Positions 2,064-35,999 of a stretch of 64,000 nucleotides of DNA are shown in pieces. The translations under genes and the position numbers were made by a program. The notes beneath the pieces were generated by a model, which did not search any database, had not been told where the DNA came from, and worked only from the letters and a program-made list of their open reading frames with translations. How positions within the stretch are numbered: the stretch's first letter is position 1; every line of letters starts with the position of its first letter. Source of the stretch: Fusicatenibacter saccharivorans (GTDB lineage Bacteria; Bacillota; Clostridia; Lachnospirales; Lachnospiraceae); NCBI RefSeq assembly GCF_015557635.1, contig NZ_JADNOP010000004.1, forward strand, positions 62,001-126,000. Direction: 5' to 3'.

Positions 2064-3131
2064 CTATTTGCGTTCGCATTCCTGGATCAGGGAAAGGATG
2101 CGGCCGATGGAATCGGTGTGGCTGCTCTTCTTCATCGCATTGATGTAGGTCTGACGGTTTTCGTAAACCTCACGGATTGCGGACTGAAGGGTCTGCGCAT
2201 TCACGGATTCTTCTTCCAGAACTTTACTGTAACCCTGACGCTCAAAGGAACGCGCATTTAAAATCTGGTCTCCGCGGCTGGCATTGGCAGAAAGCGGAAT
2301 CAGAATGTTTGGTTTTGCCAGAGCACTGATTTCGCAGATCGCATTTGCGCCGGCGCGGGAGATGATCAGATCTGCTGCGGCGAAGAGATCCGGGAGCTCA
2401 TCTTTGATGTACTCGAACTGAACGTAACCTTCGGTACCATTTAAGGATGCATCCAGTTTATCTTTACCGCAGAGATGAATCACCTGGAAATCTTTCAGAA
2501 GTTCTGGTAAAATAGAACGGACCGCATGATTGACAGCGACGGAACCGAGGCTTCCTCCGATGACGAGAATAACCGGTTTTGCGGCATTGAATCCGCAGAA
2601 CTTCAGGCCTTCCCGTGCATCGCCGGACAGCAGTTCCTGGCGGATTGGCGTTCCGGTCAGAACGGCTTTGTTTTCCGGGAGACATTTAACGGTTTCCGGG
2701 AAATTACAGCAGACCTTTGCAGCGGACGGAATACACAGCTTATTTGCCAGGCCAGGCGTCATATCCGATTCATGGATGAGCGCCGGGACTTTACATGCTT
2801 TGGCGGCAAGGACAACCGGTACCGAAACGAAGCCGCCTTTGGAGAAGACAACGTTTGGTTTCAGCTTTTTGAGCAGTTTTTTTGCTTCAAAGTAGCCTTT
2901 TACGACGCGGAATGGATCGGAAAAGTTTTTCGGATCGAAGTAGCGGCGCAGCTTTCCGGATGAAATTCCGTAATACGGAATGCCGAGATCTTCGATCAGC
3001 TTGCGCTCCATACCGTCGTAGGAACCGATATAAGAGATTTTATAACCTGCTTCCTTTAATTTTGGAATCAGGGCAATATTCGGGGTAACATGGCCGGCGG
3101 TACCTCCGCCTGTCAGAACAATATGCTTCAT
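2064..3131 (-). CDS. murG: UDP-GlcNAc:lipid I N-acetylglucosaminyltransferase MurG
   Basis: MurG converts lipid I to lipid II at the inner face of the membrane by adding GlcNAc, the last cytoplasmic step of peptidoglycan precursor synthesis. The 355-residue length is normal. Visible signatures are the N-terminal glycine-rich loop [11 protein letters not shown], the GGSLGS loop starting the second Rossmann domain, and [12 protein letters not shown] in the acceptor-side region. GGGAGGAATT before the ATG at 3131 supports the start. It is convergent with the sigma factor gene, with only a 3-base gap, and is not in a dcw cluster here, as is common in Lachnospiraceae. Confidence 0.96.
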
Positions 3132-3214
3132 GAGAATTCCTCCCTGGAATTTGATAATATCATTTGGCTTTTATTATCCCCTCAAGAAGAAAAAAAGTCA
3201 AGAGCGGTTACAAC

Positions 3215-32049: not shown

Positions 32050-32114
32050 GGATTGCGGGAGTGCAAAGCACGGAGCAATCCGGGTATCGAAGGGGTCAAA
32101 AGACTTTTTGACCC
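32050..32114 (+). other. Two hairpins between regulator and aconitase genes
   Basis: GGATTGC (32050-32056) pairs with GCAATCC (32075-32081), with an inner GTGC/GCAC stem. Next, GGGTCAAAA (32093-32101) pairs with TTTTGACCC (32106-32114). No U-run follows, so they are not a classic terminator. They could modulate readthrough, RNA stability or bind a protein. Confidence 0.55.
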
Positions 32115-32149
32115 TAACATTTTATCAACAACAAGAGGAGAGGAACGAC

Positions 32150-34438
32150 ATGATTGAATTACTGAACACAGGTGCATACCTTGTCAACGGAATCGACATC
32201 ATCCCGGATACAGAAGAAGGCCGCGCGGAACTCAAAGCGCGTACCGGCGCTGTGCCGTGTCCGGCGGATGCTGCAAAAGAAACCATTGCCTATGGAATCT
32301 TAAAAGACCACAATGTTTCCGGCAACATGGAAAATCTGCAGATCAAATTTGACAAACTTACATCGCATGACATTACTTTTGTTGGAATCATTCAGACCGC
32401 GCGCGCGTCAGGACTGGAAAAATTCCCGGTACCGTACGTGCTGACCAACTGCCACAACTCCCTTTGCGCAGTCGGCGGAACCATCAACGAAGATGACCAC
32501 ATGTTTGGTCTTACCTGTGCGAAAAAGTACGGCGGCGTCTATGTACCGCCTCATCAGGCAGTAATTCATCAGTTTGCCCGCGAGATGCTTGCCGGCGGCG
32601 GAAAAATGATCCTCGGATCCGATTCCCACACCCGTTACGGTGCACTCGGAACCATGGCCATGGGTGAGGGCGGACCGGAGCTGGTAAAACAGCTTCTCTC
32701 CAAAACATATGATATCGCTATGCCGGGAGTGATCGCAATTTACATGACAGGCGCACCGCAGCCGGGCGTAGGACCGCAGGATATTGCACTTGCCATCATC
32801 GGTGCAGTCTTTGCAAATGGTTACGTAAAGAACAAAGTTATGGAGTTCGTAGGACCTGGCGTATCTTCCTTAAGCGCAGATTACCGGATCGGTGTGGACG
32901 TTATGACAACCGAGACAACGTGTCTGTCCTCCATCTGGAGAACCGATGAGAAGATCAGCGAGTTCTATCAGATCCACGGCAGAAGCGCAGATTACAAAGA
33001 GCTGAATCCTGGCGCGGTTGCTTACTATGACGGCGTTGTAAAAGTAGAACTCGACAAGATCAAACCGATGATCGCGATGCCGTTCCATCCGAGCAATGTT
33101 TATACCATTGAAGAGCTGAAAGCAAACCTCGATGACATCCTGAACGATGTAGAGAAGAAAGCAGCCATCAGCCTCGACGGAAAAGTTCCGTTCACTCTGA
33201 AAAATAAAGTACACGACGGAAAACTCCTGGTAGACCAGGGAATCATTGCAGGATGCGCCGGCGGCGGATTTGAGAACATCTGCGACGCAGCCGATATCCT
33301 GAAAGGCCACAGCATTGGCGACGATGCGTTCACCTTAAGTGTTTACCCGGCAAGTACCCCGATCTATATGGAGCTGGCAAGAAACGGAAAACTGGCAGAC
33401 CTTTTGGAAACCGGTGCGATCGTAAAAACCGCATTCTGCGGACCGTGCTTCGGCGCAGGCGATACTCCGGCAAACAATGCGTTCTCAATCCGTCACTCCA
33501 CCAGAAACTTCCCGAACCGCGAGGGATCCAAGATCCAGAACGGCCAGATTTCTTCCGTTGCCCTGATGGATGCACGTTCCATTGCAGCAACCGCAGCAAA
33601 CAAGGGATTCCTGACCGCAGCAGACGAGTTCACCGGAACATACACGAAACCGGCATACCACTTCGACAAGAAGATTTACGAGAACCGTGTCTTCGACAGC
33701 AAGGGTGTGGCAGATCCGTCTGTAGAAATCCAGTTCGGACCGAACATCAAAGACTGGCCGGCTATGCCGCAGCTTGCCGAGAACCTGATTCTGAAGGTTG
33801 TTTCCGAGATCCACGATCCGGTTACGACAACCGACGAGCTGATTCCATCCGGCGAGACTTCTTCCTTCCGTTCCAACCCGCTCGGACTGGCAGAGTTCAC
33901 CCTGTCAAGAAAAGATCCGGCTTACGTGGGACGTGCAAAAGAAGTACAGGTCGCAGAGAAAGCCATCCAGGAAGGAAACTGCCCGGCAGAGGCACTTCCG
34001 GAACTGAAACCGGTCTTCGCAGCCATCCATACCCAGTACCCGGATATCGACAAGACAAACGTCGGTGTCGGATCCACCATCTTCGCTGTAAAACCGGGCG
34101 ACGGCTCTGCGCGTGAGCAGGCAGCTTCCTGCCAGAAGGTATTAGGCGGCTGGGCAAACATCGCCAACGAGTATGCAACGAAGCGCTACCGCTCCAACCT
34201 GATCAACTGGGGCATGCTTCCATTCCTGATCCCGGAGGGAGATCTGCCGTTTACAAACGGAGATTACATCTTTGTACCGGAGATCCGCAAGGCAGTGGAA
34301 GAGAAAGCCGATGTGATCAAAGCGTACGTTGTAAAAGACGGAGCACTTGTTCCGTTCGAGATGACGTTAGGCGCGCTGACCGATGATGAGAGAGAAATCA
34401 TCCGCAAGGGATGCCTGATCAACTATTATAGAGGATAA
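32150..34438 (+). CDS. Aconitate hydratase (aconitase superfamily)
   Basis: Aconitase interconverts citrate and isocitrate with a [4Fe-4S] cluster. The 762-residue protein has GSDSHTRYG near residue 157, cluster cysteines in GCAGGGF (about 368) and CGPCFGAG (about 430 and 433), the [17 protein letters not shown] region, and a C-terminal swivel domain. The ATG at 32150 follows AGGAGAGG; an in-frame start at 32108 falls in the preceding hairpin region. Length suits the clostridial form. Downstream citrate-cycle genes are not present. A related hydratase specificity cannot be excluded. Confidence 0.88.
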
Positions 34439-34609: not shown

Positions 34610-34638
34610 TTGACAAATACTGGCGGATCTGTTATATT
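34610..34638 (+). promoter_or_regulatory. Strong consensus promoter of the large non-coding RNA
   Basis: A perfect TTGACA (34610-34615), a 17-base spacer and TATATT (34633-34638). The 100 bases upstream are extremely A/T-rich, like an UP element. No ORF with a ribosome site follows on this strand for over 600 bases. Confidence 0.9.
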
Positions 34639-34645
34639 AAAATCA

Positions 34646-35175
34646 CAAAGAAACAAGAAAACAAAAACCTAACCAAGAGGTACAAAGAGAAAGACTTGGG
34701 ACCCCCTTTTCAAGAGAACAAACCATTTTCATAGAAAGAGACGAGAAATCTTCTATAGAAGAATGGAAAAAAAGGGAAAAGGAAGATGTTCTTAAGATGA
34801 GAGACTTCCGAAAGGAAAGAAAACCTGAGATAAAGATCCATACAAAAGAAGTTCGAAAGAAAACCTTTTGATAAACATGAGATCAGAGCAGATCTTAGGA
34901 AATCCTAAGGAAAAGATTTTCGGAGTGGAAATCTTAACCGCAAAGGAAAAGCCTCTGAAAAAGAACATCTTCCCGAAAAAAAGAAAATCTACAACAGGGA
35001 AATGGAAGAGAAACGATCTTTGAAATATCAAACGAAAGCGAAAACAAAGATCACAGATCGGTAAAGAAAGAAAACCAGTGAAAATCCTTGAAAGTAGAGA
35101 AAAAACTGAATATGGAAAATAAAGAAAAAGCGGTCGCTGTATCAGAAAAAATGATTGGTATGGCGATCGCTTTTT
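34646..35175 (+). ncRNA. Candidate large structured non-coding RNA, about 530 nt
   Basis: The segment is purine-rich, has no plausible ORF, and is bounded by a strong promoter and terminator. Several helices are visible. GGAAGATGTTCTT (34781-34793) pairs perfectly with AAGAACATCTTCC (34961-34973), enclosing a multi-branched domain. CCCTTTT (34704-34710) pairs with AAAAGGG (34770-34776), enclosing a CCATT.../...AATGG hairpin. CCAAG/CTTGG lies near the 5' end. CTTAGG/CCTAAG and AAGATTT/AAATCTT lie inside the big domain. GATCTTTG (35015-35022) pairs with CAAAGATC (35045-35052). Size and style recall ornate large RNAs such as ROOL or GOLLD, but I cannot assign a family. Confidence 0.75.
35125..35175 (+). 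terminator. Terminator of the large non-coding RNA
   Basis: AAAAAGCGGTCGC (35125-35137) pairs with GCGATCGCTTTTT (35163-35175) with one wobble; the T-run is at the end of the stem. Confidence 0.9.
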
Positions 35176-35303
35176 GTGTTGTGTAATTCGTCCGCCGGGC
35201 ATGTTTTTCTTGACAGATGCGGCGGAAATGGTGCATACTTCTTAAAGCATAACAGCGGAGAAATCCGTGTATCGAAAATAAGAAGTCAGAACAGGAGAAG
35301 AAA

Positions 35304-35999
35304 GTGGCTGGATTTTGCAGAGAAGATATTTTAATGGAAGATAACGATATTCTTGTTGTTCACAAGCACGCGGGTATGGCAGTGCAGAATGCGCGGATGG
35401 GACAGATGGATCTGGAGCATGCGCTGCTGAATTATTTGGCGAAGCAGGCAAGGGCGGAAACACCGGGTCAGGCGCGGACTCAGATTCCATATCTGGCGGT
35501 CGTTCACCGGCTCGATCAGCCGGTTGAGGGCGTGCTGGTGTTTGCGAAAAACAAAGACGCCGCAGGAAAACTGGGACGGCAGGTGAAGGACGGGACGATG
35601 AAGAAAGAGTATCTCGCCGTCTGTGAGGGAAAAATCGAAAAACAGGGCGTGCAGAAGTTTGAGGATTTCCTTGTAAAAGACGGACGGAGCAACACATCCC
35701 GCGTCGTACAGCCAGGCACCGCCGGAGCGAAAAAAGCGGTGCTGGAATATGAAGTGATAAGGACACAGGAGAACCGAACCCTGGTGCAGATCCACCTCGG
35801 AACGGGCCGCCACCACCAGATCCGCGTCCAGTTTTCCCATGCGGGATATCCGCTGGCGGGGGATGCAAAATATGGGGCGAAAGAGAAAGGATCTCTGGCG
35901 CTGTGCGCGCATCATCTCGAGCTGAAGCATCCGCGGACAGGCAAACGGCTTTCGTTTACCGTAAAACCAGAAGGTGAAATCTTCCACAGCTTTGTGTAA
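35304..35999 (+). CDS. RluA-family pseudouridine synthase
   Basis: A 231-residue enzyme that isomerises uridine in rRNA or tRNA. The catalytic motif is VVHRLDQPVEGVLVFAK (residues about 66-82), where the aspartate attacks the base; the more common form is HRLDxxTSG. The GTGRHHQIRVQFSHAGYPLAGD block is typical of the RluA group. No S4 domain is visible, so this is the short form. A GTG start at 35304 follows AGGAG at 6 bases; an ATG at 35334 is an alternative. The modified site is unknown. Confidence 0.9.
   Translation: MAGFCREDILMEDNDILVVHKHAGMAVQNARMGQMDLEHALLNYLAKQARAETPGQARTQIPYLAVVHRLDQPVEGVLVFAKNKDAAGKLGRQVKDGTMKKEYLAVCEGKIEKQGVQKFEDFLVKDGRSNTSRVVQPGTAGAKKAVLEYEVIRTQENRTLVQIHLGTGRHHQIRVQFSHAGYPLAGDAKYGAKEKGSLALCAHHLELKHPRTGKRLSFTVKPEGEIFHSFV

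Follow-up and report, generated by a model that had tools for sequence, protein, structure and literature searches.

The window analysed here is a stretch of 64,000 nucleotides from Fusicatenibacter saccharivorans, in which the 865 bases between a hydratase gene and a pseudouridine synthase gene are without a plausible gene on the + strand. This bears out the preliminary description, which had seen no plausible ORF there; the largest + strand ORF lying wholly within the RNA described below encodes 51 aa. The product of the upstream gene passes the NCBIfam model NF008503 (hydratase) and falls far under the cut-offs for aconitate hydratase, and it is therefore better named an aconitase-family hydratase. 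The following features were located, running from this gene to the next.

32108-34438, + strand: upstream neighbour, aconitase-family hydratase (NCBIfam NF008503), outside the RNA
34610-34638, + strand: promoter TTGACA-17-TATATT with TG before the -10 (11/12 consensus matches)
34645-35175, + strand: structured RNA, predicted transcript (start at about 34645 placed from the -10, end set by the terminator)
34673-34699, + strand: 5' hairpin CCAAG/CUUGG around AGGUACAAAGAGAAAGA, from sequence comparison by eye
34704-34710 with 34770-34776, + strand: 7-bp helix CCCUUUU/AAAAGGG closing the 5' domain (34704-34776)
34723-34766, + strand: family hairpin with loop GACGAGAAA at 34740-34748, stem AUAGAA/UUCUAU on CCAUU/AAUGG
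34781-34793 with 34961-34973, + strand: 13-nt inverted repeat forming a 13-bp helix, 167 nt between the arms
35015-35022 with 35045-35052, + strand: 8-bp helix GAUCUUUG/CAAAGAUC, seen in the window sequence only
35125-35175, + strand: terminator hairpin of the AAGCGGUCGCUGUAUCA type, arms 35125-35144/35156-35175
35210-35239: promoter-like site before the pseudouridine synthase gene (10/12, a weak consensus match)
35304-35999, + strand: downstream neighbour, RluA-type pseudouridine synthase, outside the RNA

The promoter, the terminator arms, the 13-bp and 8-bp perfect helices and the 7-bp helix enclosing a hairpin had all been claimed in the preliminary description, and each was found at the position listed. 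The promoter is near-consensus, which suggests that the predicted RNA is abundant; a scan over 1.8 kb found three sites of at least 9/12 matches, with 1.7 expected by chance. The terminator resembles the GAACGACCGUUGUAUCA...UGGUAUGACGGUCGUUC type of the relatives, and is absent from the list returned by a simple terminator scan. The RNA is 47% A and 68% purine, so that its earlier characterization as purine-rich stands. Antisense to it there is a phenylalanine-rich ORF of 136 aa (34792-35202, - strand), which probably arises since a purine-rich strand leaves the opposite strand few stops.

It had also been claimed that such a set of structures is unlikely by chance, and the fold agrees. The minimum free energy of the window RNA is -121.7 kcal/mol, where shuffles average -84.1 (z -6.69, 0/100 shuffles as good), and with the terminator removed the fold still scores z -5.36, again with 0/100 shuffles as good. 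The 13-bp repeat alone is weaker evidence, as 1 of 150 shuffles reached 13. What is decisive is covariation in homologues, a check proposed at the outset, which was found for the 5' hairpin, for helices A1:B1 and H3 of the core and for the hairpin after the core.

A DNA search covered 41 genomes, seven of which matched, the window's own included. A homologue lies at the same locus in five of the six other genomes of the genus, and the DNA search found none in the sixth, which is 75% complete; a 31-base match in one order-level genome was taken as chance. Both neighbour genes are identical in kind at four of these loci (G002, G003, G004 and G006), while the G005 contig stops before the upstream gene. 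The intergenic stretches of these relatives are longer, at 1394-2763 bases (that of G005 is truncated where its contig ends). Inspection by eye and pairwise BLAST showed two domains in G004 and G006, the 13-bp-helix domain of the window and a second one, the core, whereas G002, G003 and G005 have the core and no 13-bp-helix domain. The 5' hairpin and the terminator were found in all five. G004 and G006 share both of the window's 13-bp helix arms letter for letter, with about 600 nt between them, so this helix is without covariation because its arms do not vary. In the 5' domain, the CAAG/CUUG of the hairpin at 34673-34699 is retained in G004 and G006 (by eye), and the closing helix CCCUUUU/AAAAGGG becomes CUCUUUC/GAAAGAG in both, a compensatory change.

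A conserved protein frame over the RNA as a whole, which would have spoken against an RNA, was not found. In the five same-genus alignments, gaps in multiples of three numbered 5/26, 2/20, 4/29, 1/18 and 1/10, and substitutions had no consistent three-base period over the whole RNA. Gap lengths and substitution pattern thus oppose a protein-coding reading of the whole RNA on either strand in these relatives, the pairs of which evolve as non-coding. The stretch between the RNA and the pseudouridine synthase gene of G003 (L013, ~3065-3195) contains AAAGCTGGCACC ... GGTGCCAGCTTT, a long inverted repeat that may be a small mobile element.

The 5' domain also holds the family hairpin with the loop GACGAGAAA, which the window has at 34740-34748. 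The letters of the stem beneath this loop vary widely among species. Across 30 sequences, the window's included, pairing of the arms scored 7.55 with their own partners and 2.51 with swapped partners, and none of 2000 permutations was as good. The motif, with G, A or T as its first base, occurs upstream in 39 of 62 core-bearing RNAs, three of these probably by chance. An internal pairing partner of the loop was sought and rejected: for the four 6-mer complements tried, the RNAs that contain them number 0, 1, 0 and 5 out of 62, with 1 kb around the core scanned. Since the complement is nearly absent from the RNAs themselves, an outside partner is likelier, and the conservation of the loop suggests that it binds a protein or another RNA as a putative partner.

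The number of relatives grew with the query. Among 397 sampled Lachnospiraceae genomes, the G003 RNA matched 34, a first model (R1) matched 47 and a model of core strand B plus the hairpin after it (R2) matched 56, in 48 of 334 genera; 341 genomes gave no core match with R2, and as the model searches used strict filters, the true number of genomes may be higher. In an order-level sample, R1 matched 7 of 295 genomes, every match being within Lachnospiraceae, and R2 matched 0 of 226 genomes of the class sample and 0 of 199 of the phylum sample, both of which hold a few Lachnospiraceae. A pattern scan of named genomes returned 44 stretches, 29 of them confirmed by R1 at E below 0.001, including records of Blautia, Lactonifactor longoviformis and Candidatus Scatomonas; the remainder are mostly chance pattern matches. 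A phage or plasmid origin was considered and rejected: BLAST with the G003 RNA against 50,697 phage and 72,556 plasmid records gave no match, and three viral contigs with the pattern were weak at best (28 bits, E 0.03). The RNA occurs in 48 of the 334 Lachnospiraceae genera sampled, with covariation enough to draw its structure, and judged from sequence comparison it is almost certainly a real structured RNA class, in this sampling restricted to Lachnospiraceae.

The domain commonest among the relatives is a crossing core. In order, it consists of an AGGAGG ribosome site, a start codon, A1 (CAAUAUGAG), A2 (GUGGUA), the inner helix H3, B1 (CUCAUAUUG), B2 (UACCAC) and a hairpin with the loop GUGUAAAGAAAY. 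A1 pairs with B1 and A2 with B2, and given the order A1-A2-B1-B2 the two helices cross, as in a pseudoknot. For A1:B1, changes on both sides are seen in GAG/CUC, GUC/GAC, GGU/ACC, AUC/GAU and CAAUACGAG/CUUGUAUUG; over 58 RNAs with 16 distinct arm pairs, 139 of 144 cells are paired, against a permuted mean of 117 and with 0 of 5000 permutations as good. As a scripted set, A2:B2 is weak (41 of 54 cells are paired, and 96 of 5000 permutations do as well); single clear compensatory cases are GUGACA/UGUCAC and GUGGCA/UGCCAC, and in one further case, GCGGUA with UACCGA, an end pair is lost. H3 varies by clade (ACCUUUUAU/AUAAAAGGU, ACCUGAAAU/GUUUCAGGU, UUCAGUAG/CUACUGAA and GCAAAU/AUUUGC), with a mean score over 57 RNAs of 17.2 against 13.8 permuted and 0 of 300 permutations as good.

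For the hairpin after B2, two alignments agree. In the model-fitted one, 88.1% of cells are paired against 64.9% in shuffles, and the covariation score is 0.594 against 0.205; in a plain MAFFT alignment, the values are 84.9% against 62.9% and 0.561 against 0.198, and in neither did any of 500 shuffles score as high. Pairs changed on both sides number 12 of 13 and 11 of 13, respectively, a count that is not decisive alone because 86 and 19 of 500 shuffles reach it. By eye, one clade (L130, L134, L135, L136, L138, L139 and L142) carries TCGGAG within the core and CTCCGA close to the 3' end, with CCGAAG/CTTCGG as the counterpart in L142; these could form a long-range helix, for now a candidate. 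A further 3' element, AATTGAATA, stands just before the terminator in L013, L022 and L038, and its 9-mer is common to 38 of the 62 RNAs.

The window itself has no such core. The core model (B plus hairpin) gave a best score of 8 bits against the window (E 0.35), which is no match, and none against the window's own genome, so that a core remnant was rejected for both; the window is assigned to the class by its locus, promoter, 5' domain and terminator, and it has neither the crossing A1-A2/B1-B2 helices nor the GUGUAAAGAAAY hairpin. By these comparisons, the copy in the window represents a short form that has no counterpart of the domain commonest among the relatives. One could argue that it is a decaying remnant of a real family whose functional core was lost in the window species, and the retention of both the 13-bp-helix domain and the core in G004 and G006 fits this. 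A remnant would sit poorly with a promoter, a 5' hairpin with an intact loop, a 13-bp helix and a terminator that are all present, with the compensatory changes in the closing helix and with a fold far stabler than shuffles, and we consider decay improbable.

In the core-bearing relatives, promoter calling returned a TTGACA promoter for 61 of 62 homologues (taking the best site within at most 1500 bases upstream; the one exception lies near a piece end). Scripted promoter-to-terminator lengths span about 430-1490 nt with a median of about 810, one shorter value being set aside and several single values certainly being miscalled. Thus, comparison backs the proposal of the preliminary description that this is a large structured RNA with a promoter and a terminator of its own: read from sequence, it is an independent RNA gene that combines these signals with paired domains and a crossing core, to which most relatives add a small ORF whose codons make up one side of that core.

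This small ORF of 15-34 codons lies behind the ribosome site and is open through A1 in 44 of 59 RNAs. Shine-Dalgarno matches of at least 5/6 were found in 52 of the 59, all of which have an ATG, TTG or GTG start, as the script required. In 43 of the 44 open-frame RNAs the distance from start to A1 is a multiple of three (24, 27 or 30), against 7 of the 15 in which the ORF stops early (Fisher p 2e-5, or 3e-4 without two doubtful rows). A ribosome site this strong, placed within the crossing core, suggests a coupling to translation. In those 15 RNAs the ORF ends before the core, after 2-9 codons (two rows doubtful), so translation through the core is not essential everywhere.

These same data could mean that the RNA serves chiefly as the messenger of a conserved small peptide (...QYxSG...), with the structure regulating its translation or stability. 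The ribosome site and the kept frame would be expected of a messenger, as would one clade with peptides of 26-34 aa of the type MDN...QYVSGMAN..S...SLNHR. Against this, the residues before QY, and so before A1, vary widely, which makes translation or the ribosome seem weightier than the peptide, and the A1 residues change together with their pairing partner (GAG/CUC, GUC/GAC, GGU/ACC), so that RNA pairing can explain QYxSG. With the early stops in 15 of 59 and a window copy that has no ORF-bearing core, a messenger role appears distinctly unlikely.

The neighbouring genes bear on whether the RNA acts on the gene that follows. A hydratase or a pseudouridine synthase lies within the 1.5-kb flanks of 17 of the 28 first related loci (a few of the 28 being probably chance matches), and in the window's genus and these 17 loci one or both of the same genes adjoin the RNA, as they might if it controlled the downstream gene in cis, as a leader or attenuator. 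In the window, a terminator ends the RNA, and a promoter-like site, albeit a weak consensus match, follows. Among 20 more distant loci, compared over the two nearest larger ORFs on each side, the hydratase is upstream in five and the synthase is the first or second ORF downstream in four; in ten, the RNA precedes one family of large proteins, with GlgB homologues next in seven of these. The downstream gene is thus, by clade, the pseudouridine synthase, a large protein of uncertain family (often then glgB) or others. The changing downstream gene, the terminator and the promoter-like site before the window's downstream gene together argue against a cis role, which we regard as quite improbable, and the variation of neighbours between clades, with that same site, favours action in trans: the RNA is probably trans-acting and not the leader of the next gene. 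The large protein (863-1047 aa) is encoded immediately upstream of glgB at L130, L134, L135, L136, L139, L141 and L142; the L130 pair was the one tested against families, and its large protein gave only sub-threshold matches to CbbX/SpoVK-like AAA, NB-ARC and pentapeptide families.

Few large structured RNAs are known from bacteria, and to most of them no function has been assigned. The preliminary description had suggested a check against ROOL, GOLLD, OLE, raiA and HEARO, all of which we take to be present in Rfam 15. No Rfam 15 covariance model matched the window at gathering score; twelve homologous loci gave only an unrelated T-box at that score, and those five families were absent even from the matches of permissive scans. 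What the permissive scans did return (snoRNA, miRNA, lncRNA, bacterial sRNAs, a frameshift element and a CRISPR repeat) lay well below gathering and was taken as chance, the best being mir-6301 on L142 (E 5e-5, with 31.7 bits where gathering requires 70). No prior description was recognised in the literature searched, which lay mostly outside subscription journals, nor in the available portions of PMC8632094, PMC6429828, PMC12286853 and PMC11109978. It had been left open whether this RNA is a member or relative of ROOL, GOLLD or OLE or a new class: membership found no Rfam match, and what is supported, as far as Rfam 15 and the searched literature reach, is a new class of large structured RNA that has yet to be named.

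OLE associates with an OapA-type membrane protein. It is likewise large (~600 nt) and conserved, occurs in Gram-positive extremophiles and anaerobes, and sits in a membrane-associated RNA-protein complex. The window RNA differs in having no Rfam match and in being flanked by the hydratase and the pseudouridine synthase, and most of its relatives hold an internal ribosome site and ORF. ROOL and GOLLD are similar in size and multi-domain fold; according to PMC12286853, ROOL has several pseudoknots, the function of GOLLD is unknown, and both are carried by phages and prophages, frequently close to tRNA islands. The window RNA, in contrast, lies between ordinary chromosomal genes, and it does not share that location as judged by its flanking genes and by the phage and plasmid BLAST with its G003 homologue. 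The raiA motif (ModT) is also a conserved structured RNA of Bacillota; its length is given in PMC12286853 as ~205 nt, and no Rfam match links the window RNA to it. Dual-function RNAs of the S. aureus RNAIII type are structured regulatory RNAs that also hold a small ORF, whereas here the ORF codons themselves form a core helix.

As a whole, we give about an even chance to an independent RNA gene of an unnamed class whose product serves as a trans-acting scaffold or sponge, with a translation-gated core in most relatives. A strongly transcribed RNA would act in trans, and ribosomes entering the small ORF would cover a stretch that must pair downstream; translation would keep the core open, and a drop in translation would let it close, with the GACGAGAAA loop as a possible docking site for a partner. 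The gating of the core by translation is itself a tentative proposal, for which we see somewhat less than an even chance. The window species would then have a short form that retains the 5' docking domain without the ribosome-gated core; as the window copy has neither core nor ORF, the gating idea is inapplicable to it, and only the scaffold part can hold there. Speculative, and on balance unlikely, is the fuller picture of a ribosome-gated RNA machine, in which an abundant RNA with a pseudoknot core in its own ORF codons would be opened and closed by the translation state of the cell, capturing or releasing a partner on the GACGAGAAA loop, and which would be core-less and ungated in the window species. 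If true, this would be an RNA class with a built-in link to the ribosome. At one locus, in G321 (L125, 4981-5064 and 7827-7908), two copies of the core lie on the same strand, 2.8 kb apart.
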